From Erysipelotrichaceae bacterium (lineage in GTDB: Bacteria > Bacillota_I > Bacilli_A > RFN20 > CAG-449), in NCBI GenBank assembly GCA_015059095.1, contig SVBA01000018.1, positions 1 through 37,786 on the forward strand: 37,786 bases of DNA, given 5' to 3'. Shown here piece by piece: positions 12,720-32,218 of the stretch (position 1 is its first letter; each line of letters opens with the position of its first letter). The position numbers and the translations under genes are program-made. The notes beneath the pieces are model-generated. The model was not told the origin of the DNA. It did not search any database and worked only from the letters and a program-made list of their open reading frames with translations.

Positions 12720-12746
12720 ATATTGAGGGCGGATTGCCCTCAATAT
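12720..12746 (-). terminator. Strong hairpin after the lipoprotein gene
   Basis: A perfect 11-bp stem (12720-12730 with 12736-12746; GAGGGC core) with a 5-nt loop lies 7 bp past the stop codon. On the minus strand it is followed only by TTATCATTC, a weak T-tract, so termination may be incomplete or the hairpin may protect the 3' end. Confidence 0.65.
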
Positions 12747-26265: not shown

Positions 26266-27240
26266 TCATTCTTTTTTATTTTTTTCTAAATAATCATCTA
26301 ATTTATCTAATAAAATATATTCAGTATAAATCAGTGGTGTTTCTTCACTTTCAAAAGTAGATTTAATAACATAGCTATCTCCATTTCTACATAATAAAAT
26401 TCCTATTGTTTTATTATCTATTTTACTTCTAATCTCTTTATCTACTAAAGATACATAATTTTTAAGTTGTCCATAATATTCAGGTTTATATTCTCCTATC
26501 TTTACTTCTATAACTAAAAATGAATGCAATAAATAATTATAAAATAATAAATCAATATAAAAAGTTTTCTTCCCGCCTTTAATCTTATATTCTCTCCCAA
26601 CAAACGCATTACCTTTTCCTACTTCTTGTAATAATTCAATTAATTTATACATCATTTGTTCTTTTAATTCTTTTTCAGTATTAATTTCATTACTTTTAAT
26701 TGATAAGTAGTAACTAGATTTTACAATTTTATCAATAAGTTTATTATCATAATCTTTTATTCCTTTACTTACTATAGGTTCAATCATATTTCTTTCATAT
26801 GCTTTAGCATTTATTTGTTTTATTAAGACTGATCTACTCCATGAGTTTTCATATGTCTTTCTTATATACCATAATCTTGCTTCTTTATTTGAACATTTAG
26901 ACATGATTGTCACAATATGTCCCCAAGGAATTTGTGGCACAGCTTGCGCCACAATTTCTTCATAAGTAAAAGATTTATTAAATTTAGCCATTCTATACAA
27001 ATTATCATAACTCATCCCTTTCCTATGTTTTAAATCATTAGATAATCTTTTAACATATTCAGAACCCCAAGTCTTATGTTTATTAATATATCTTCCTATA
27101 TCATAATAAAGCATTATCAATTTAGGATTTGAGTAAGCATATACTTGTCTATATGTTTCCTCAATTCGTTTTTCAATAATATCTAGTTCATCTTTATATT
27201 CTTGTTCATTAATAACTTCGATTATTTCTTTTTTCTTCAT
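26266..27240 (-). CDS. DUF1016/YhcG-type PD-(D/E)XK nuclease, intact copy
   Basis: A 324-residue member of the YhcG family. An N-terminal helical DUF1016_N domain (about 20-160) includes YSNPKLIMLYYDIGRYI, the variable segment 96-103 and the conserved IPWGH and NSWSRSVLIKQI segments. The C-terminal nuclease domain (about 205-324) shows the PD-(D/E)XK pattern with Asp230 (FYIDLLFYN) and Glu245-Val-Lys247 (VIEVK), followed by Gln258. Such proteins are predicted DNA nucleases, often in defence or mobile neighbourhoods. It starts 70 bp after the GH79 stop, behind AGGAGG, which lies in the 3' arm of a hairpin. It is the only complete one of at least five DUF1016-derived loci here, and it contains an in-frame inverted repeat. 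Confidence 0.87.
   Translation of the reverse strand: MKKKEIIEVINEQEYKDELDIIEKRIEETYRQVYAYSNPKLIMLYYDIGRYINKHKTWGSEYVKRLSNDLKHRKGMSYDNLYRMAKFNKSFTYEEIVAQAVPQIPWGHIVTIMSKCSNKEARLWYIRKTYENSWSRSVLIKQINAKAYERNMIEPIVSKGIKDYDNKLIDKIVKSSYYLSIKSNEINTEKELKEQMMYKLIELLQEVGKGNAFVGREYKIKGGKKTFYIDLLFYNYLLHSFLVIEVKIGEYKPEYYGQLKNYVSLVDKEIRSKIDNKTIGILLCRNGDSYVIKSTFESEETPLIYTEYILLDKLDDYLEKNKKE
26932..26954. repeat. In-gene 9-5-9 inverted repeat, DUF1016 intact copy
   Basis: Plus strand: arms TTGTGGCAC and GCGCCACAA (one mismatch) around loop AGCTT. It covers codons 96-103 (I-V-A-Q-A-V-P-Q), just before the conserved IPWGH. Same register as four other DUF1016 segments. Confidence 0.85.
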
Positions 27241-27244
27241 AATA

Positions 27245-27276
27245 AAAACCTCCTATATAGTTAATACGGAGGTTTT
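27245..27276 (-). terminator. GH79 terminator whose 3' arm is the next gene's ribosome binding site
   Basis: On the minus strand AAAACCTCC pairs with GGAGGTTTT (9 bp, 14-nt loop), followed by TTATT and the ATG of the DUF1016 gene. It can act as a terminator for GH79, and the AGGAGG of the next gene is buried in the stem. Confidence 0.6.
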
Positions 27277-27309
27277 CTTTAAAAGTTCTATTTTTTTTAA
27301 AAAACTTAA

Positions 27310-28809
27310 TTACATAATGATAAATGTACAAGTTTCAGGTTTTAATTCTAATTCACCAGCTTCTACTTTTCTTGCTGATAAATCAGGTAATTCATCGTGT
27401 TCACCTAAAACTAATTCTCTACCATTTAATTTCATTACTTCTGAACGGATAAAGTCTGCGTGTAATTCATAAACTTCTGCGTCTTTTTCTAAAGTAACTT
27501 TAGTAGATTCAGTATGCGAGTTATTAATTGCTAAATATGCAATACCTTTTTTACCATCTTTTCTAGAATGAGCATAAATATGAGCACCTTCTTGTAGTTC
27601 AATACCTGAATTATATACAGTAGTTCCCATTAATTTAGACCATAATAGTACAGCCCAGTAATTAGGACGTGGTGAGAAATCATGATGATCTAAGAAACCA
27701 TATGCTGATGAAGCTAAAGTATTATGGAAAATAACACCATCAGTAATAGTAGCAAAATCACCTAATTCATTTAATGTTCTAAATACATCCATGTATGTAG
27801 AAGCCCATGAGTCACCACCGCCTCCAGCATCACCAGATTCAGTAACCCACATTTCTCCTCCTGGACAATATTTATCTCTATATTTTCTATTACCAGCAGC
27901 ACATTTTCCTGCAACTGCAAGATATTTTTCAGATAATGTAGAATCTGGAGACCAGTGCATTTGAGGCATTACTGACATTAATCTATCAGAAATACCATTA
28001 TAATAATGGTAAGAATATACATCGATTGGTTCACTAGTTGGTTCCATTAATCCTTCAGTTGAAACATTATCACCAAACATACCACCTAAACCAGAAGTAT
28101 CCATACCAGCTTCAGGACCCATTTCTGCTGCTACAGTACAAGGACCTACTCTTAATACTTCAGGATAATTTTCATGTAACCATTTGAAGAATAAATCTTG
28201 GTCTCTTCTATAATGTTCAGCAGTATATCCTACTGGAGCACCAGAGAATGCTAACATATTAGGTTCATTCATAAATTCAGCAGCTTCAACTGGAACACCA
28301 TATTCTTTAGAGAATCTAAATAATTGTTCTGCTTGACCTGGGTGCCATGGTTCATTAGCTTTATGTAAACCTTCACAGTTATTAACAGAAATTAATAATT
28401 TAGCGCCCACTGCTTTAACAAATTCTAATAAATTAATCCATTGATCTTTTGTTAAAACTGATTGATAATCTTCAGGTACTTTACCATTAGTATGACCATC
28501 TAAATCATAATAAGTTTTAGTAGCCCATGTACCAGATACTCTAACCCATACTGGACCAAATTCTTTTGCTAATTTTCTAACTCTTTCATTATATAAGTTA
28601 ATTGGAGGGTATACTTGCATAATACCACTTAAATCCATACTCTTTAATGGTGGAAAATCTTCTTTACCTTCTACTTGTGCTTTAGTATAAGCTTTCCAGA
28701 AAGTACCACCTGTAACTTCTGTCATTTCAACATTATATGACATAAGTTTTGGATTAACGCTTCTAATTACATCTAATCCATTTGCTTTTAAATTAAAATG
28801 TTTTGCCAT
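27310..28809 (-). CDS. GH79 (heparanase-like) beta-glucuronidase, cytoplasmic
   Basis: A 499-residue glycoside hydrolase resembling family 79, which removes beta-linked glucuronic acid or its 4-O-methyl form with retention. The acid/base is Glu182 in AEFMNEPN and the nucleophile is Glu324 in MWVTESGDAGGGGD, the counterpart of heparanase GETSSAYGGG; the following NTLASSAYGFLD, PRPNYWAVLLWSKLMGTTVY stretches also track heparanase. A C-terminal beta domain (about 430-499) is present. There is no signal peptide, so substrates must be imported. The frame opens earlier, but GAGGAG fits the ATG at 28809. It links the locus to glucuronate release. Alternative: a related GH30/GH39-clan enzyme, less likely given the nucleophile region. 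Confidence 0.87.
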   Translation of the reverse strand: MAKHFNLKANGLDVIRSVNPKLMSYNVEMTEVTGGTFWKAYTKAQVEGKEDFPPLKSMDLSGIMQVYPPINLYNERVRKLAKEFGPVWVRVSGTWATKTYYDLDGHTNGKVPEDYQSVLTKDQWINLLEFVKAVGAKLLISVNNCEGLHKANEPWHPGQAEQLFRFSKEYGVPVEAAEFMNEPNMLAFSGAPVGYTAEHYRRDQDLFFKWLHENYPEVLRVGPCTVAAEMGPEAGMDTSGLGGMFGDNVSTEGLMEPTSEPIDVYSYHYYNGISDRLMSVMPQMHWSPDSTLSEKYLAVAGKCAAGNRKYRDKYCPGGEMWVTESGDAGGGGDSWASTYMDVFRTLNELGDFATITDGVIFHNTLASSAYGFLDHHDFSPRPNYWAVLLWSKLMGTTVYNSGIELQEGAHIYAHSRKDGKKGIAYLAINNSHTESTKVTLEKDAEVYELHADFIRSEVMKLNGRELVLGEHDELPDLSARKVEAGELELKPETCTFIIM

Positions 28810-28874
28810 TATAAAAAACTCCTCGTATGTTAATAATAACACTAAATCAAATAAAAATATAGTATCTATTTTTT

Positions 28875-29110
28875 TCATTTATTAAAATGCTCATTAAGTT
28901 TATCTTCTAAAACATACCTAGAGAAAACTAAAGGAACATCATCATTTTCAAACGTAGATAAATTTAAAAAATCACATTATATTTATATTTGCGTCCACTT
29001 TAGGCTATTTATATATAATCCTATTTTGACCTTTTCAAACTTTTCTTCATTAATGTAAGTTCAAAAATCATGGTAGGCCAAAGTTTTTTTCATTAGAATA
29101 GACTGCTATG
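28875..29110 (-). pseudogene. Decayed DUF1016 relic upstream of GH79
   Basis: The C-terminal piece (28875-28967, ending in TGA) translates STFENDDVPLVFSRYVLEDKLNEHF, matching the intact copy's STFESEETPLIYTEYILLDKLDDYL. A second piece at about 29040-29110 matches the N-terminal AVYSNEEKTLAYYDIGTYINE coding region of the truncated copy, but is frameshifted and stopped. The centre of the gene is missing. Together with 29111-29215 this fills the 406-bp stretch between two genes. Confidence 0.7.
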
Positions 29111-29156
29111 TATTATTCTTTTTCACTCTCGGTTCACTTTCATCAGTATATCCTAT

Positions 29157-29213
29157 TCTCCCGGTATCTCCCGGTATCTCCCGCTCTCTCCCGCTCTCTC
29201 CCACACTCTCCGA
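29157..29213. repeat. 10-bp tandem array with five GGG tracts (minus strand)
   Basis: Plus strand: two copies of TCTCCCGGTA, two of TCTCCCGCTC, then a degenerate TCTCCCACAC and TCTCCG. CCC triplets start at 29160, 29170, 29180, 29190 and 29200, so the minus strand has five GGG runs with exact 7-nt spacers, fitting the G3N1-7 quadruplex pattern. It lies immediately after the stop codon of the AlbA/ATPase gene. Very GC-rich for this genome. Confidence 0.85.
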
Positions 29214-29215
29214 AT

Positions 29216-30529
29216 TTATTGATATAATACATATTTGCTATTTGAACTAGCCCCCTCAATTTTTATGATTTGTTTTCCTATCATAAGTGTTAATATTTTG
29301 CCAGCTCTAGATTTTCGAATATTTAATATATCTTCCACAGTACTTCGTCTAATAAAGCCATATTTCTTAATATAATCAATTATTACTTGTTCTTGTTCAG
29401 TTAAATCGCAATTTGTATCTATAACTTGTGGATGTAAAGCTTTTATAACATCATTACCATATTTAAAAGAAATCGTAATAAAGTTATCAGTTATTTCAAA
29501 ATCTTTTTTAGAAAGATATTTCATTATTCTTCTCATACCTCTACCTAAGTGTTCACCCATATCTAAATCACTCATTACACGCATTAATTCTCTATTTCTA
29601 GGTAAAGATTTTGCTTTGAAAAATTCTTCTTTAGATAAACCTTGAGGCAATCCTCCATAAGAAAATAACTCAATTCTATCATCATAAATAATTATATAAG
29701 GTTCACTTCCTACAGAGTAATCATTATGACAAAAAATATTCAAAATAGCTTCTCTTAAAGCTGTAGGATTTACAAGATTTATTTCTTTTCTTCTAGCATC
29801 ACCTGTTATTTCAATACTTGTTTTATTTTCAATTTTCAATTTTTCAATAACGCAATTTATTGCTTTAATTAAGCAACATCTTCCATATTCATTTCTTTCC
29901 ACAAAATCGTCATTACTATATTTAGCAACTCTAATAGATGTAGCATTATTATCAGAAAGTAAATAAGCTAAATAATTAAATTTATGATCTTCAGTATATA
30001 AATCTAAAGACTCTAAAAAATATTCATTATTTACTCCCTCATATCCTTTTTCTTGATAATAAATTTTAAGTTGAGTAAATGTTAACTTTTGTCTAGGTGA
30101 TACCATATTAGATAATGTATTTTTAACTTTTTTAGCGTATAGATTATCTATTTCTTTTTGTTCCATTGGAGAAGATTGAGTACCTATTCTTTTAAAACAT
30201 CCTTTTACTGACATTCCATATTTCTTTATATAATAAGGTTTTTCAATCCCGCTAGCGACATTGATTTCTAAATAATGCTTATTATTATCATCATTTAAAA
30301 TATTAACTTCAAATAATCCAATAATAGATGGTGTAATATTATTCTTTAATCTATCAACAATTCTTAAACTCAAATCATCATAATTATTAATTCCTATTAC
30401 TTCTCCTATCTTATTTACTCCAATATAGATTGCTCCGGAATGAGTGTTAAGAAATGCAACCACTTCTTTTTCTAAATCTTCTATAATCGATTCTTTTAAT
30501 TCTACGTATTCATTTTCTTCATATTTCAT
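29216..30529 (-). CDS. AlbA/Schlafen-domain ATP-binding regulator (COG2865-like)
   Basis: A 437-residue protein in three parts. The N-terminal AlbA_2 (Schlafen AAA_4-type) domain shows NEYVELKESI, FLNTHSGAIYIGVN and the following helices (residues 5-130). A GHKL-like ATP-binding segment (about 240-350) contains ALREAILNIFCHNDYS, DRIELFSYGGLP and LGRGMRRIMKYL. A C-terminal winged helix (about 370-437) has LTEQEQVIIDYIKKYGFIRRSTVEDIL. These proteins are predicted ATP-binding transcription factors, or defence components in some contexts. Start set at 30529 (AGGAGG upstream); the frame opens at 30586. It shares the CGTA-TTAA leader motif of the neighbouring DUF1016 genes and lies in the same island. 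Confidence 0.82.
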   Translation of the reverse strand: MKYEENEYVELKESIIEDLEKEVVAFLNTHSGAIYIGVNKIGEVIGINNYDDLSLRIVDRLKNNITPSIIGLFEVNILNDDNNKHYLEINVASGIEKPYYIKKYGMSVKGCFKRIGTQSSPMEQKEIDNLYAKKVKNTLSNMVSPRQKLTFTQLKIYYQEKGYEGVNNEYFLESLDLYTEDHKFNYLAYLLSDNNATSIRVAKYSNDDFVERNEYGRCCLIKAINCVIEKLKIENKTSIEITGDARRKEINLVNPTALREAILNIFCHNDYSVGSEPYIIIYDDRIELFSYGGLPQGLSKEEFFKAKSLPRNRELMRVMSDLDMGEHLGRGMRRIMKYLSKKDFEITDNFITISFKYGNDVIKALHPQVIDTNCDLTEQEQVIIDYIKKYGFIRRSTVEDILNIRKSRAGKILTLMIGKQIIKIEGASSNSKYVLYQ

Positions 30530-30569
30530 GTTATTTTCCTCCTTGAATAAACACGCTCTATATGTTAAT

Positions 30570-30836
30570 ACGTAAGAAATTAACAAAATTACTATTTTTA
30601 TTTTAACTTTTTCTCATTTTTACTAGTTTTGAACATAAGAATCAACGTCTTAAAAACCGGTCTTAGTGAAACCTACTTTTGATACATTAAGTAAGTTATT
30701 TTTATTCTTCACAATAATCTTTTATTCCTTTACTTACTATAGGTTCAATAGTATTTCTTTCATATGCTTTGGCTTTTATTTGTTTTATTAAAACTGATCT
30801 ACTCCATGAATTTTGATATGTTTTATTAATGTACCA
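30570..30836. repeat. 267-bp direct repeat, copy 1
   Basis: Nearly identical to 31231-31497 (about 6 differences; the internal 30615-30809 segment is identical). It comprises the AlbA gene leader/promoter region (30570-30701) and the last 45 codons of the truncated DUF1016 gene. The offset between copies is 661 bp. Confidence 0.9.
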
Positions 30837-31205
30837 TAATCTAGATTCTTTAGTTGAACATTTATATGTAATCTCAATTAATGTTCTCCAAGGAATTTGC
30901 GCACCAGCTTGGTGCGTAATTTCTTCTTTTGTATATAGTTCTGCTACTCTTACCATATACTCTAAGTTTCTTTTAGAGAATCCATCTATGTTTTTTAAAT
31001 CTTCTGCTAGTTTTTTTATGTATTGGTTTCCCCATTCTTTTCTTTCATTAATATAAGTTCCAATATCATAATAAGCTAGAGTCTTTTCTTCGTTAGAATA
31101 AACTGCAACTTTAAAATTTGCTTCATTAATTCTTTTAATTATTCTTTTTAGTTCTTCTTTATATTCTTGTTCATTTACTATTTCACTTACTTCTTTTTTA
31201 ATCAT
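30702..31205 (-). CDS. C-terminally truncated DUF1016 protein (N-terminal domain only)
   Basis: A 167-residue protein aligned with residues 1-164 of the intact 324-residue copy: YSNEEKTLAYYDIGTYI, NIDGFSKRNLEYM, QIPWRTLIEI and NSWSRSVLIKQIKAKAYERNTIEPIVSKGIKDY, then CEE and a stop. The entire PD-(D/E)XK nuclease domain is missing, so at most a DNA-binding or regulatory fragment is made. The reading frame is intact with a good SD (GAAGGAG), so it may be expressed. The same truncation end recurs at 31363, copied with the 267-bp repeat. Could be annotated as a pseudogene. Confidence 0.72.
   Translation of the reverse strand: MIKKEVSEIVNEQEYKEELKRIIKRINEANFKVAVYSNEEKTLAYYDIGTYINERKEWGNQYIKKLAEDLKNIDGFSKRNLEYMVRVAELYTKEEITHQAGAQIPWRTLIEITYKCSTKESRLWYINKTYQNSWSRSVLIKQIKAKAYERNTIEPIVSKGIKDYCEE
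30897..30919. repeat. In-gene 9-5-9 inverted repeat, truncated DUF1016 copy
   Basis: Plus strand: arms TTGCGCACC and GGTGCGTAA (one mismatch) around AGCTT; encodes I-T-H-Q-A-G-A-Q before IPW. Arms unrelated to those at 26932 but in the same codon register. Confidence 0.85.
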
Positions 31206-31230
31206 AAAAAATCTCCTTCATATATTTATT

Positions 31231-31497
31231 ACGTAAGAAAATAACAAAATTACTATTTTTATTTTAACTTTTTTTCATTTTTACTAGTTTTGAACATAAG
31301 AATCAACGTCTTAAAAACCGGTCTTAGTGAAACCTACTTTTGATACATTAAGTAAGTTATTTTTATTCTTCACAATAATCTTTTATTCCTTTACTTACTA
31401 TAGGTTCAATAGTATTTCTTTCATATGCTTTGGCTTTTATTTGTTTTATTAAAACTGATCTACTCCATGAGTTTTCATATGTTTTATCGATGTACCA
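31231..31497. repeat. 267-bp direct repeat, copy 2
   Basis: Second copy of 30570-30836. It carries the leader of the truncated DUF1016 gene and the 3' end of the mosaic pseudogene, so the same C-terminal truncation point (KDYCEE stop) is present in both. Confidence 0.9.
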
Positions 31498-31557
31498 AAT
31501 TACCGCATCGTGCTCTCTGTTCTTTTTCAATATTTCAATTATTGTTCCCCATGCTAA

Positions 31558-31580
31558 TTGGGGAACAGGTTGTTCCCTTA
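31558..31580. repeat. In-gene 9-5-9 inverted repeat, third-parent segment
   Basis: Plus strand: arms TTGGGGAAC and GTTCCCTTA (two outer mismatches) around AGGTT; encodes I-R-E-Q-P-V-P-Q before LAW. The loop differs from AGCTT by one base. Confidence 0.8.
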
Positions 31581-31622
31581 TTTCTTGTATTGAAATATTT
31601 CAACGCAAGTAGACCATAGTAT

Positions 31623-31645
31623 TTTCGCCACAGCTTGTGGCGGAA
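31623..31645. repeat. In-gene 9-5-9 inverted repeat, second-parent segment
   Basis: Plus strand: arms TTTCGCCAC and GTGGCGGAA (one mismatch) around AGCTT; encodes I-P-P-Q-A-V-A-K before ILW. Confidence 0.85.
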
Positions 31646-31865
31646 TTTGTTGGAATGTCAATTCATCACTAAACCATGAAATCCTTTCAAAATTTCTTTG
31701 AGAGAAACCATTAATATTCTTTAAACTTCTACTGTATGCACATGTATTTATTTGTCTTTCTAGTTGTCTAACTGACCAATTTCCTTTAACTGCTTCTTCA
31801 ATATAATATTCTCTAATATGTTGTTCCGGAATAGTCAACAATAATCTATAATGACTCCATGTTAA

Positions 31866-31888
31866 TTCGGGTCTCACTGAGACCCAAA
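31866..31888. repeat. In-gene 9-5-9 inverted repeat, first-parent segment
   Basis: Plus strand: arms TTCGGGTCT and AGACCCAAA (one mismatch) around CACTG; encodes I-W-V-S-V-R-P-E before LTW. This lineage has lost the QA loop codons, but the inverted repeat is kept in register. Confidence 0.82.
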
Positions 31889-32218
31889 TTGGATATATCA
31901 AATAAAATTGTCTCATTCTCCTTAAATTTCTTTCATCATAACCTTCACCTTAATCATTAATTAATCTCTTAGATAAATCTTTTATAAGATTATCTCCATA
32001 CTTAGCTTTATCTTCTCCACCTTGCTCTTCTACTATCATTTTACTTATATTCCAATAAACAAATAATAAAGTAGCGTTCGCATAATTCCTTACTCTTTTT
32101 CTAGCGTCATTAATCAACGACCTTATTTCCAAATAAAAATCTTCACCAATAATTTTTTCTTCATTTTCAATTTTAATTATTTTATTTTTACTTTTAACCA
32201 TAATAAAAACTCCTTACA

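Follow-up and report, generated by a model that had tools for sequence, protein, structure and literature searches.

The window analysed here, a stretch of 37,786 nt from contig SVBA01000018.1 of an Erysipelotrichaceae bacterium (G+C content 29%), contains genes and gene fragments of the DUF1016/YhcG family of predicted nucleases. Five of these segments carry a palindrome at the same codon position, and the same arrangement recurs across the family: the palindrome stands at a fixed position in the gene, its sequence differs from gene to gene, and its bases covary with residues of the encoded protein. On this basis it is very probable that the DUF1016/YhcG protein recognises the palindrome in its own gene. 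The explanation as a whole, namely that the palindrome is the DNA target of its own gene's product, is read by a dimer and is most likely autoregulatory, we hold to be moderately probable; that autoregulation is the main purpose of self-recognition is slightly favoured.

A preliminary description of the window reported inverted repeats with 9-nt arms and a 5-nt loop in five DUF1016 segments, ten codons upstream of the conserved Trp of the [I/L]-x-W motif. All five are present, with 8, 8, 7, 8 and 8 of the 9 arm positions paired. Their position relative to the Trp is indeed fixed, and is better described as that of an odd palindrome with a single-base centre 18 nt (six codons) before the TGG codon. 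The five palindromes are as follows.

26932..26954, minus strand: palindrome 1, coding-strand core GTGGCGCAAGCTGTGCCAC, centre 26943, 18 nt before the Trp codon at 26925-26923
30897..30919, minus strand: palindrome 2, coding strand ACGCACCAAGCTGGTGCGC, centre 30908
31558..31580, minus strand: palindrome 3, AGGGAACAACCTGTTCCCC, centre 31569; overlapped by another inverted repeat (31543-31567)
31623..31645, minus strand: palindrome 4, CCGCCACAAGCTGTGGCGA, centre 31634
31866..31888, minus strand: palindrome 5, TTTGGGTCTCAGTGAGACCCGAA, centre 31877, with the classical AGT centre

Pairing reaches d = 8 (where d is the distance in bases from the centre) with at most one break, and is partial from there to d = 13; the arms differ among the five. 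A scan of the whole 37.8 kb for 9-5-9 repeats with at least four G/C per arm and at least 8 of 9 pairs returned four of the five palindromes, an overlapping neighbour of the one in segment 3 (31544-31566), an unrelated repeat at 12722, and no others. The claim that flanking codons show no complementarity is not strictly true, since segment 3 is overlapped by another inverted repeat with perfect 9-bp arms (31543-31567). This repeat has a loop of 7, and its arm GGGGAAC is able to pair on either side.

DUF1016_N genes were gathered from the window's genome and class, from a GTDB-wide scan, and from viral contigs, plasmids and further phyla. Within the class 71 of 296 genomes (about a quarter) contain DUF1016, and the GTDB-wide scan yielded loci from Firmicutes, Bacteroidetes, Spirochaetes, Planctomycetes, Cyanobacteria, Desulfobacterota, Campylobacterales and archaea; a first viral scan with the window protein alone as query gave no matches. 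A palindrome was scored where at least six of the seven Watson-Crick pairs at d = 2-8 form around a centre 18 nt before the Trp codon. This holds in 196 of 268 non-redundant DUF1016_N genes (73%), 144 of which form all seven pairs, and at any other position in the gene no more than 5.7% of the 268 show such pairing. Synonymous recoding of the same peptides, with codons weighted by usage, gives an expectation of 2.1%, or 5.7 genes, against the 73% observed. Many genes encode the common peptide Q-T-x-S-G as CAGAC...GTCTGG, which could suggest that the palindrome is a by-product of peptide conservation or codon usage; this is contradicted both by the recoded null and by the finding of 73 distinct six-base half-sites among the 196 genes, and its probability is close to negligible.

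The larger set of 380 genes divides into 268 with the standard position, 73 in which it is shifted and 39 that are without a palindrome by this measure. In the shifted class the offset is a multiple of three and is due to an insertion between palindrome and Trp; the looser search for this class has a background of 15 in 331 when run downstream. Some of the 39 have inverted repeats with a different spacer (for example L073 and L092). The palindromic site is 17-29 bp long and its sequence varies by gene, the arms changing and the symmetry being kept. Half-site differences rise steadily with protein divergence; fast diversification is therefore not demonstrated, and the idea of a hypervariable site, evolving faster than the rest of the gene, was rejected.

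Mutual information was calculated between protein columns, labelled relative to the conserved Trp (W), and half-site bases, with the palindrome's own codons excluded. The seven top column-base pairs all lie within three short stretches, GF-S-x-x-N-L-x-x-M-R (W-24, W-21 and W-20), W-S-H-Y-x (W+1 and W+4) and N-W-S-V-R-E-L (W+29 and W+30), and the pattern is kept with 321 genes. The first stretch tracks the outer bases d5, d7, d8 and d9, and the other two track the inner bases d2, d3 and d4. Robust z is 20.8 for W-24/d7, 13.5 for W+29/d3 and 11.3 for W+1/d3; further covarying pairs are W-21 with d8/d9, W-20 with d5, W+4 with d4, and both W+1 and W+30 with d2. Arg at W-24 accompanies G at d7 in 114 of 117 genes. 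At W-21, Trp, Tyr or Phe goes with T at d8 in 105 of 105 genes, and all 17 genes with Glu there have C at d8. Arg at W-20 is matched by C (G on the opposite strand) in 54 of 67, Arg at W+4 by C at d4 (likewise G on the opposite strand) in 48 of 57, and Arg at W+30 by C at d2 in 202 of 205. These correspondences look like known amino acid-base contact chemistry.

The residues also predict the site across the family. A leave-cluster-out predictor using residues only, with training proteins less than 50% identical, gave the correct base at d3 for 90% of the genes, against a baseline of 24% and against 50% with random variable columns; the corresponding values are 79% (40% and 42%) at d7 and 75% (39% and 45%) at d4, and d6 and d8 were barely predictable. 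When checked on the window's own genome, it returned 5 of 5 scored bases for the gene at 26266-27240, 5 of 6 for that at 30702-31205 and 4 of 5 for a third gene. In an AlphaFold2 model of the protein encoded at 26266-27240 (mean pLDDT 86), the covarying residues lie at the N-terminal starts of three predicted helices, and the palindrome codes for the linker (residues 91-105) between the first two.

26971..27009, minus strand: predicted recognition helix 1, residues 78-90; D79, Y82 and R83 occupy W-24, W-21 and W-20, which covary with d7, d8/d9 and d5
26896..26925, minus strand: predicted helix 2, residues 106-115, beginning at the conserved Trp; W+1 and W+4 covary with d2/d3 and d4
26809..26835, minus strand: predicted helix 3, residues 136-144; R136 occupies W+29, covarying with d3, and S137 occupies W+30, covarying with d2

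A fold search found nothing for the N-terminal domain, the nuclease domain alone matching archaeal EndoMS/NucS-type repair nucleases, and solved structures searched by sequence yielded no real relative either. Among the possibilities first raised for the palindrome was a tag recognised by the nuclease itself. The protein-DNA covariation strongly favours this, and suggests that a dimer of the protein would physically bind the site.

The preliminary description left it undecided whether selection acts on a DNA or an RNA structure, holding only that it does not act on the peptide. The recoding null argues for a constraint on the nucleic acid rather than the peptide; the RNA alternative fares less well. 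Covarying arms around a short loop are typical of RNA stems, and a functional hairpin in the mRNA could serve translation control or protein-RNA binding. RNA stems, however, tolerate G-U pairs. Among third-codon-position transition mismatches in 206 palindromes, A·C amounts to 23/612 (3.8%) and G·T to 11/418 (2.6%; p = 0.38), so that G-T is no commoner than A-C. An early apparent excess of A·C was partly a codon effect, the controlled test shows no difference, and an RNA hairpin, whether a fold of the mRNA or of an antisense transcript, was rejected. The absence of G·U tolerance fits a double-stranded DNA site read by a dimer, not a transcript stem. The site bases, moreover, follow what appears to be the protein's DNA-contact chemistry, and exact copies occur also in leaders; we consider a functional RNA hairpin exceedingly improbable.

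The genomic distribution of the site was examined in 30 genomes, each with a CCAGAC-type DUF1016 gene or close relative. The 15-mer CCAGACRSTGTCTGG occurs in 27 of the 30, mostly as a single copy within the DUF1016 gene. The extra sites examined are leader copies (G834 and G833), a copy in the leader of a DUF1016 remnant (L442) and copies in second DUF1016 genes (G304 and G309); G004 has one intergenic region with two such palindromes. Over all loci, 38 second copies fall in the region coding for the putative DNA-binding domain, against 1.7 expected, and among 341 genes six fall 0-100 bp upstream of the start codon, against 0.8 expected; in the farther flanks second copies are at chance level. 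The leader copy AATTTGCCAGACACTGTCTGGCAAATT of L057 lies immediately 5' of the ribosome-binding site.

Two further fixed codon positions, -108 and +183 nt relative to the main centre, bear second intragenic copies in some unrelated members (L142, L276, L278, L321, L317, L264; L430, L421, L376, L186). The DUF1016 genes of L317 and L318 are each placed within a type I restriction operon, with hsdM on one side and hsdS on the other; L317, an Aeromonas copy, has the palindrome and, 108 nt upstream of it, a second one that could control the genes downstream. An intergenic segment, L455:1480-1600, has two DUF1016-type palindromes of different sequence, CCAGACACTGTCTGG and ATCACGCAGTGCGTGACGAT, separated by 46 bp, and no DUF1016 gene; these are either remnants or target sites.

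Multiple copies are found also within yhcG of Escherichia coli. The K-12 gene has three palindromes at a spacing of 39 nt (centres at gene nt 316, 355 and 394; the genomic centres are NC_000913.3 3368142, 3368181 and 3368220), the O157:H7 allele one, that of 2015C-3107 two, and that of 20KM2222 (L474) the first and third. They have a CAGAC...GTCTG core in common, and their outer bases vary and are still symmetric. These tandem in-frame copies show that local duplication happens. A further palindrome, ATTCTGCAGACagtGTCTGCAGAAT, lies 28 nt past the yhcG stop codon in each of the four E. coli alleles read with an intact 3' end, namely L465 (K-12, where it is the fourth palindrome, centre NC_000913.3 3368982), L466, L470 and L474; it could be a marker of the unit's 3' end or a terminator. 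K-12 YhcG has Arg in place of the invariant Trp (residue 141), and yhcG of E. coli B is truncated just past the third palindrome and followed by a transposase gene; common laboratory strains of E. coli may thus be natural yhcG mutants. In L467, L468 and L469 yhcG is interrupted by IS1 or ends at a transposase remnant, with breaks at gene nt 385 and 406 that flank the third palindrome, as if insertion elements favoured it. The possibility that these breaks are scars of self-cleavage was rejected: the alleles read adjoin IS1 or transposase remnants and hence provide no evidence for nuclease action.

One to three tandem in-frame copies per E. coli allele read, with arms symmetric past the core, are what might be expected if palindromes were perfected by mutation (template switching) or spread by themselves in frame, without any recognition function. 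Such processes leave unexplained the fixed codon position across phyla, the match of residue to base and the absence of copies elsewhere. A palindrome-copying hotspot or a self-spreading palindrome, both envisaged at the outset, is not needed: copies are absent outside DUF1016 genes in the 30 genomes, except in leaders and remnants, and within each arm the inner ~8 bp already find their explanation in the putative DNA-reading residues. We regard an origin without recognition as highly improbable.

Recognition by the encoded protein could work in the following manner. A DUF1016/YhcG dimer would read each half-site through the N-termini of three helices of the N-terminal domain, one helix reading the outer bases d5 and d7-d9 and two reading the inner bases d2-d4. 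The site would sit in the codons of the variable linker between reading helices, where the peptide appears to tolerate almost any sequence; this freedom makes the linker a natural location for the site. Site and reading residues would form one cassette, moving together and changing together, and with reader and target linked within about 200 bp, specificity would be able to change and move as a unit. Binding inside the gene, and sometimes also in the leader, would limit the gene's own transcription, the site acting as operator or roadblock. A potentially harmful nuclease would in this way be kept low, and would arrive in a new host with its own brake.

Several points weigh against recognition with autoregulation. 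A Bacilli clade (L075, L076, L077, L079, L083, L085, L093 and L212) is truly without the palindrome. Leader copies are found in few genes (6 of 341), which means that regulation would have to operate mostly from inside the gene, and the invariant nuclease residues would be superfluous for a pure repressor. The columns used by the predictor were picked on the same data set. In addition, calibration on ordinary nucleotide positions gives z values with a 95th percentile of 9.7 and a maximum of 13.4, so that single covariation scores, except that of W-24/d7, are not decisive alone; these values are high partly because the control set includes the codons of the reading residues themselves. The case for probable recognition draws its strength from position, order, chemistry and cross-family prediction all pointing the same way.

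The window itself contains one intact gene of the family together with further, partly rearranged segments. The curated cut-offs are 32.8 bits for PF17761 and 32.5 bits for PF06250, and the gene at 26266-27240 is above both.

26266..27240, minus strand: intact DUF1016_N + YhcG_C (PD-(D/E)XK) gene, 324 aa; PF17761 110.8 bits, PF06250 126.8 bits
26296..26730, minus strand: YhcG_C nuclease domain of this gene, residues 171-315, active-site residues kept
30702..31205, minus strand: second DUF1016_N gene, 167 aa, without nuclease domain; PF17761 103.1 bits
31385..31600, minus strand: DUF1016_N fragment (segment 3), ends approximate, N-terminus lost; PF17761 positions 81-137 at 31417-31590
31578..31916, minus strand: chimeric DUF1016_N frame, the C-terminal part of segment 5 with the middle of another DUF1016 (segment 4)
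31728..32201, minus strand: segment 5, classical-type DUF1016_N with one in-frame stop (TAA); 141.5 bits

The region 31578-32201 is a chimeric array: an in-frame fusion joins the C-terminal part of one DUF1016_N with the middle of a second, and a third fragment follows; the array looks like the product of repeated recombination between DUF1016 copies. A near-identical direct repeat (30600-30760 and 31270-31420) spans the 3' end of the second DUF1016 gene and ~120 bp downstream, and includes GGTCTTAGTGAAACC, at 30659-30673 and 31320-31334, which has two mismatches to palindrome 5 (GGTCTCAGTGAGACC). A C-rich short tandem repeat (tctcccggta / tctcccgctc) at 29140-29215 lies between a glycosidase-like gene (27310-28878) and an AlbA_2/Schlafen-type gene (29216-30586).

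The main rival explanation is that YhcG cuts or nicks its own gene, either on a trigger or continuously with repair. The outcome would be gene conversion among the copies, the removal of competing ones, or a lethal alarm when repair is blocked, for example by phage. The active-site columns are invariant among aligned members (upstream E in 328/328, D in 320/320, E or D in 315/315 and K in 314/314), and this makes self-cutting a serious possibility. The site is near-unique in the genome and located in the nuclease's own gene, the DUF1016 segments of the window are fragmented and chimeric, and the family appears in PADLOC as PDC-S02, a candidate system against phages; all of these would fit. Unregulated cutting of the cell's own chromosome would, however, be costly, cleavage is here a prediction only, and the E. 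coli truncations near the palindrome adjoin insertion sequences or transposase remnants and need no nuclease. On balance we think self-targeting unlikely. A bolder version, which we consider clearly improbable, is a self-addressed nuclease that functions as a one-component alarm, in which an invader that blocks repair or relieves autorepression would convert the single built-in site into a lethal break. Healthy cells would suppress or repair the damage, and because reader and target are inherited together, target specificity could drift freely.

If instead the palindrome were an identity tag, then a resident nuclease might use it to remove a related plasmid, phage or mobile element that enters the cell with the same gene on it. 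DUF1016 genes are often multi-copy and mobile, with 465 plasmid records, and none of 108 within-genome paralogue pairs shares a half-site, although this comparison is biased by the prior removal of identical genes. The resident copy would bear the same tag and be hit as well, however, and genomes with two genes of the same site exist (G304 and G309). No protecting methyltransferase adjoins most copies, some being in type I restriction-modification (R-M) operons (two of the eight plasmid DUF1016 loci whose neighbours were read). Exclusion of this kind seems very unlikely.

Recognition of the gene's own palindrome, if correct, has several consequences. The family is common, including E. coli K-12 yhcG and PDC-S02, and was previously without a known target; a predicted target sequence would now be readable, for hundreds of members, from the gene itself. 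Matched pairs of protein and DNA site would constitute a natural data set from which a recognition code could be learned and engineered, and the function of YhcG becomes directly testable with short oligonucleotides. The palindrome is also an instance of coding DNA selected for symmetry, for a reason unrelated to the peptide.

The proteins themselves (COG4804/PF06250 with DUF1016_N, PF17761) were recognised as PD-(D/E)XK nucleases, with predicted DNA cleavage, in 2005 (PMC1189080). That description concerns the same proteins and gives their helical N-terminal domain no function or target; its accessible portion makes no mention of a palindrome (PMC1189080). A literature search, with coverage short of some preprints and most subscription journals, found no paper linking DUF1016/YhcG with a palindrome in its own gene. 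Rickettsia palindromic elements are 100-150 nt repeats of few sequence classes found in many genes (PMC186582 as cited in PMC4316617); as described there they are likewise in-frame palindromic DNA within protein-coding genes, whereas the DUF1016 site is 17-29 bp, gene-specific in sequence and confined to one gene family and its leaders. Nor do DUF1016 genes belong with homing endonucleases, whose target is found in alleles without the gene and is split where the gene inserts, since most members keep an intact site inside the gene. Type IIP restriction endonucleases are similar in being PD-(D/E)XK dimers with a palindromic site and a specificity that varies between relatives; they differ in that DUF1016 is without an adjoining methyltransferase at most copies, its site is built into the gene rather than avoided, and its cleavage is only predicted.

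The controller (C) proteins and the self-regulating methyltransferases of R-M systems act at operators located in promoters, the reader being either a separate regulator or the methyltransferase itself. The likeness would be that of a dangerous nuclease autoregulated through a palindromic operator that moves with the system; the difference is that the operator is not read by the nuclease from inside its own coding sequence, as proposed for YhcG. The regulation of R-M systems is the subject of a review (PMC3874152). In the ParB-parS system of Bacillus subtilis one parS lies inside spo0J. Here again a DNA-binding protein has a palindromic site that may be inside its own gene; parS, however, is near-invariant and serves chromosome segregation, whereas the DUF1016 site is gene-specific, at a fixed codon position and associated with a nuclease. 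A weak HTH_ParB match of 23.8 bits was found on one chimeric window fragment and none on the intact protein, which does not indicate membership of ParB, for which HTH_ParB and CTPase domains would be expected. The nearest known kinds are thus ParB with a parS in its own gene and the autoregulated restriction systems, and in neither is the site different in every gene, yet always at one codon position and matched to the reader encoded around it.

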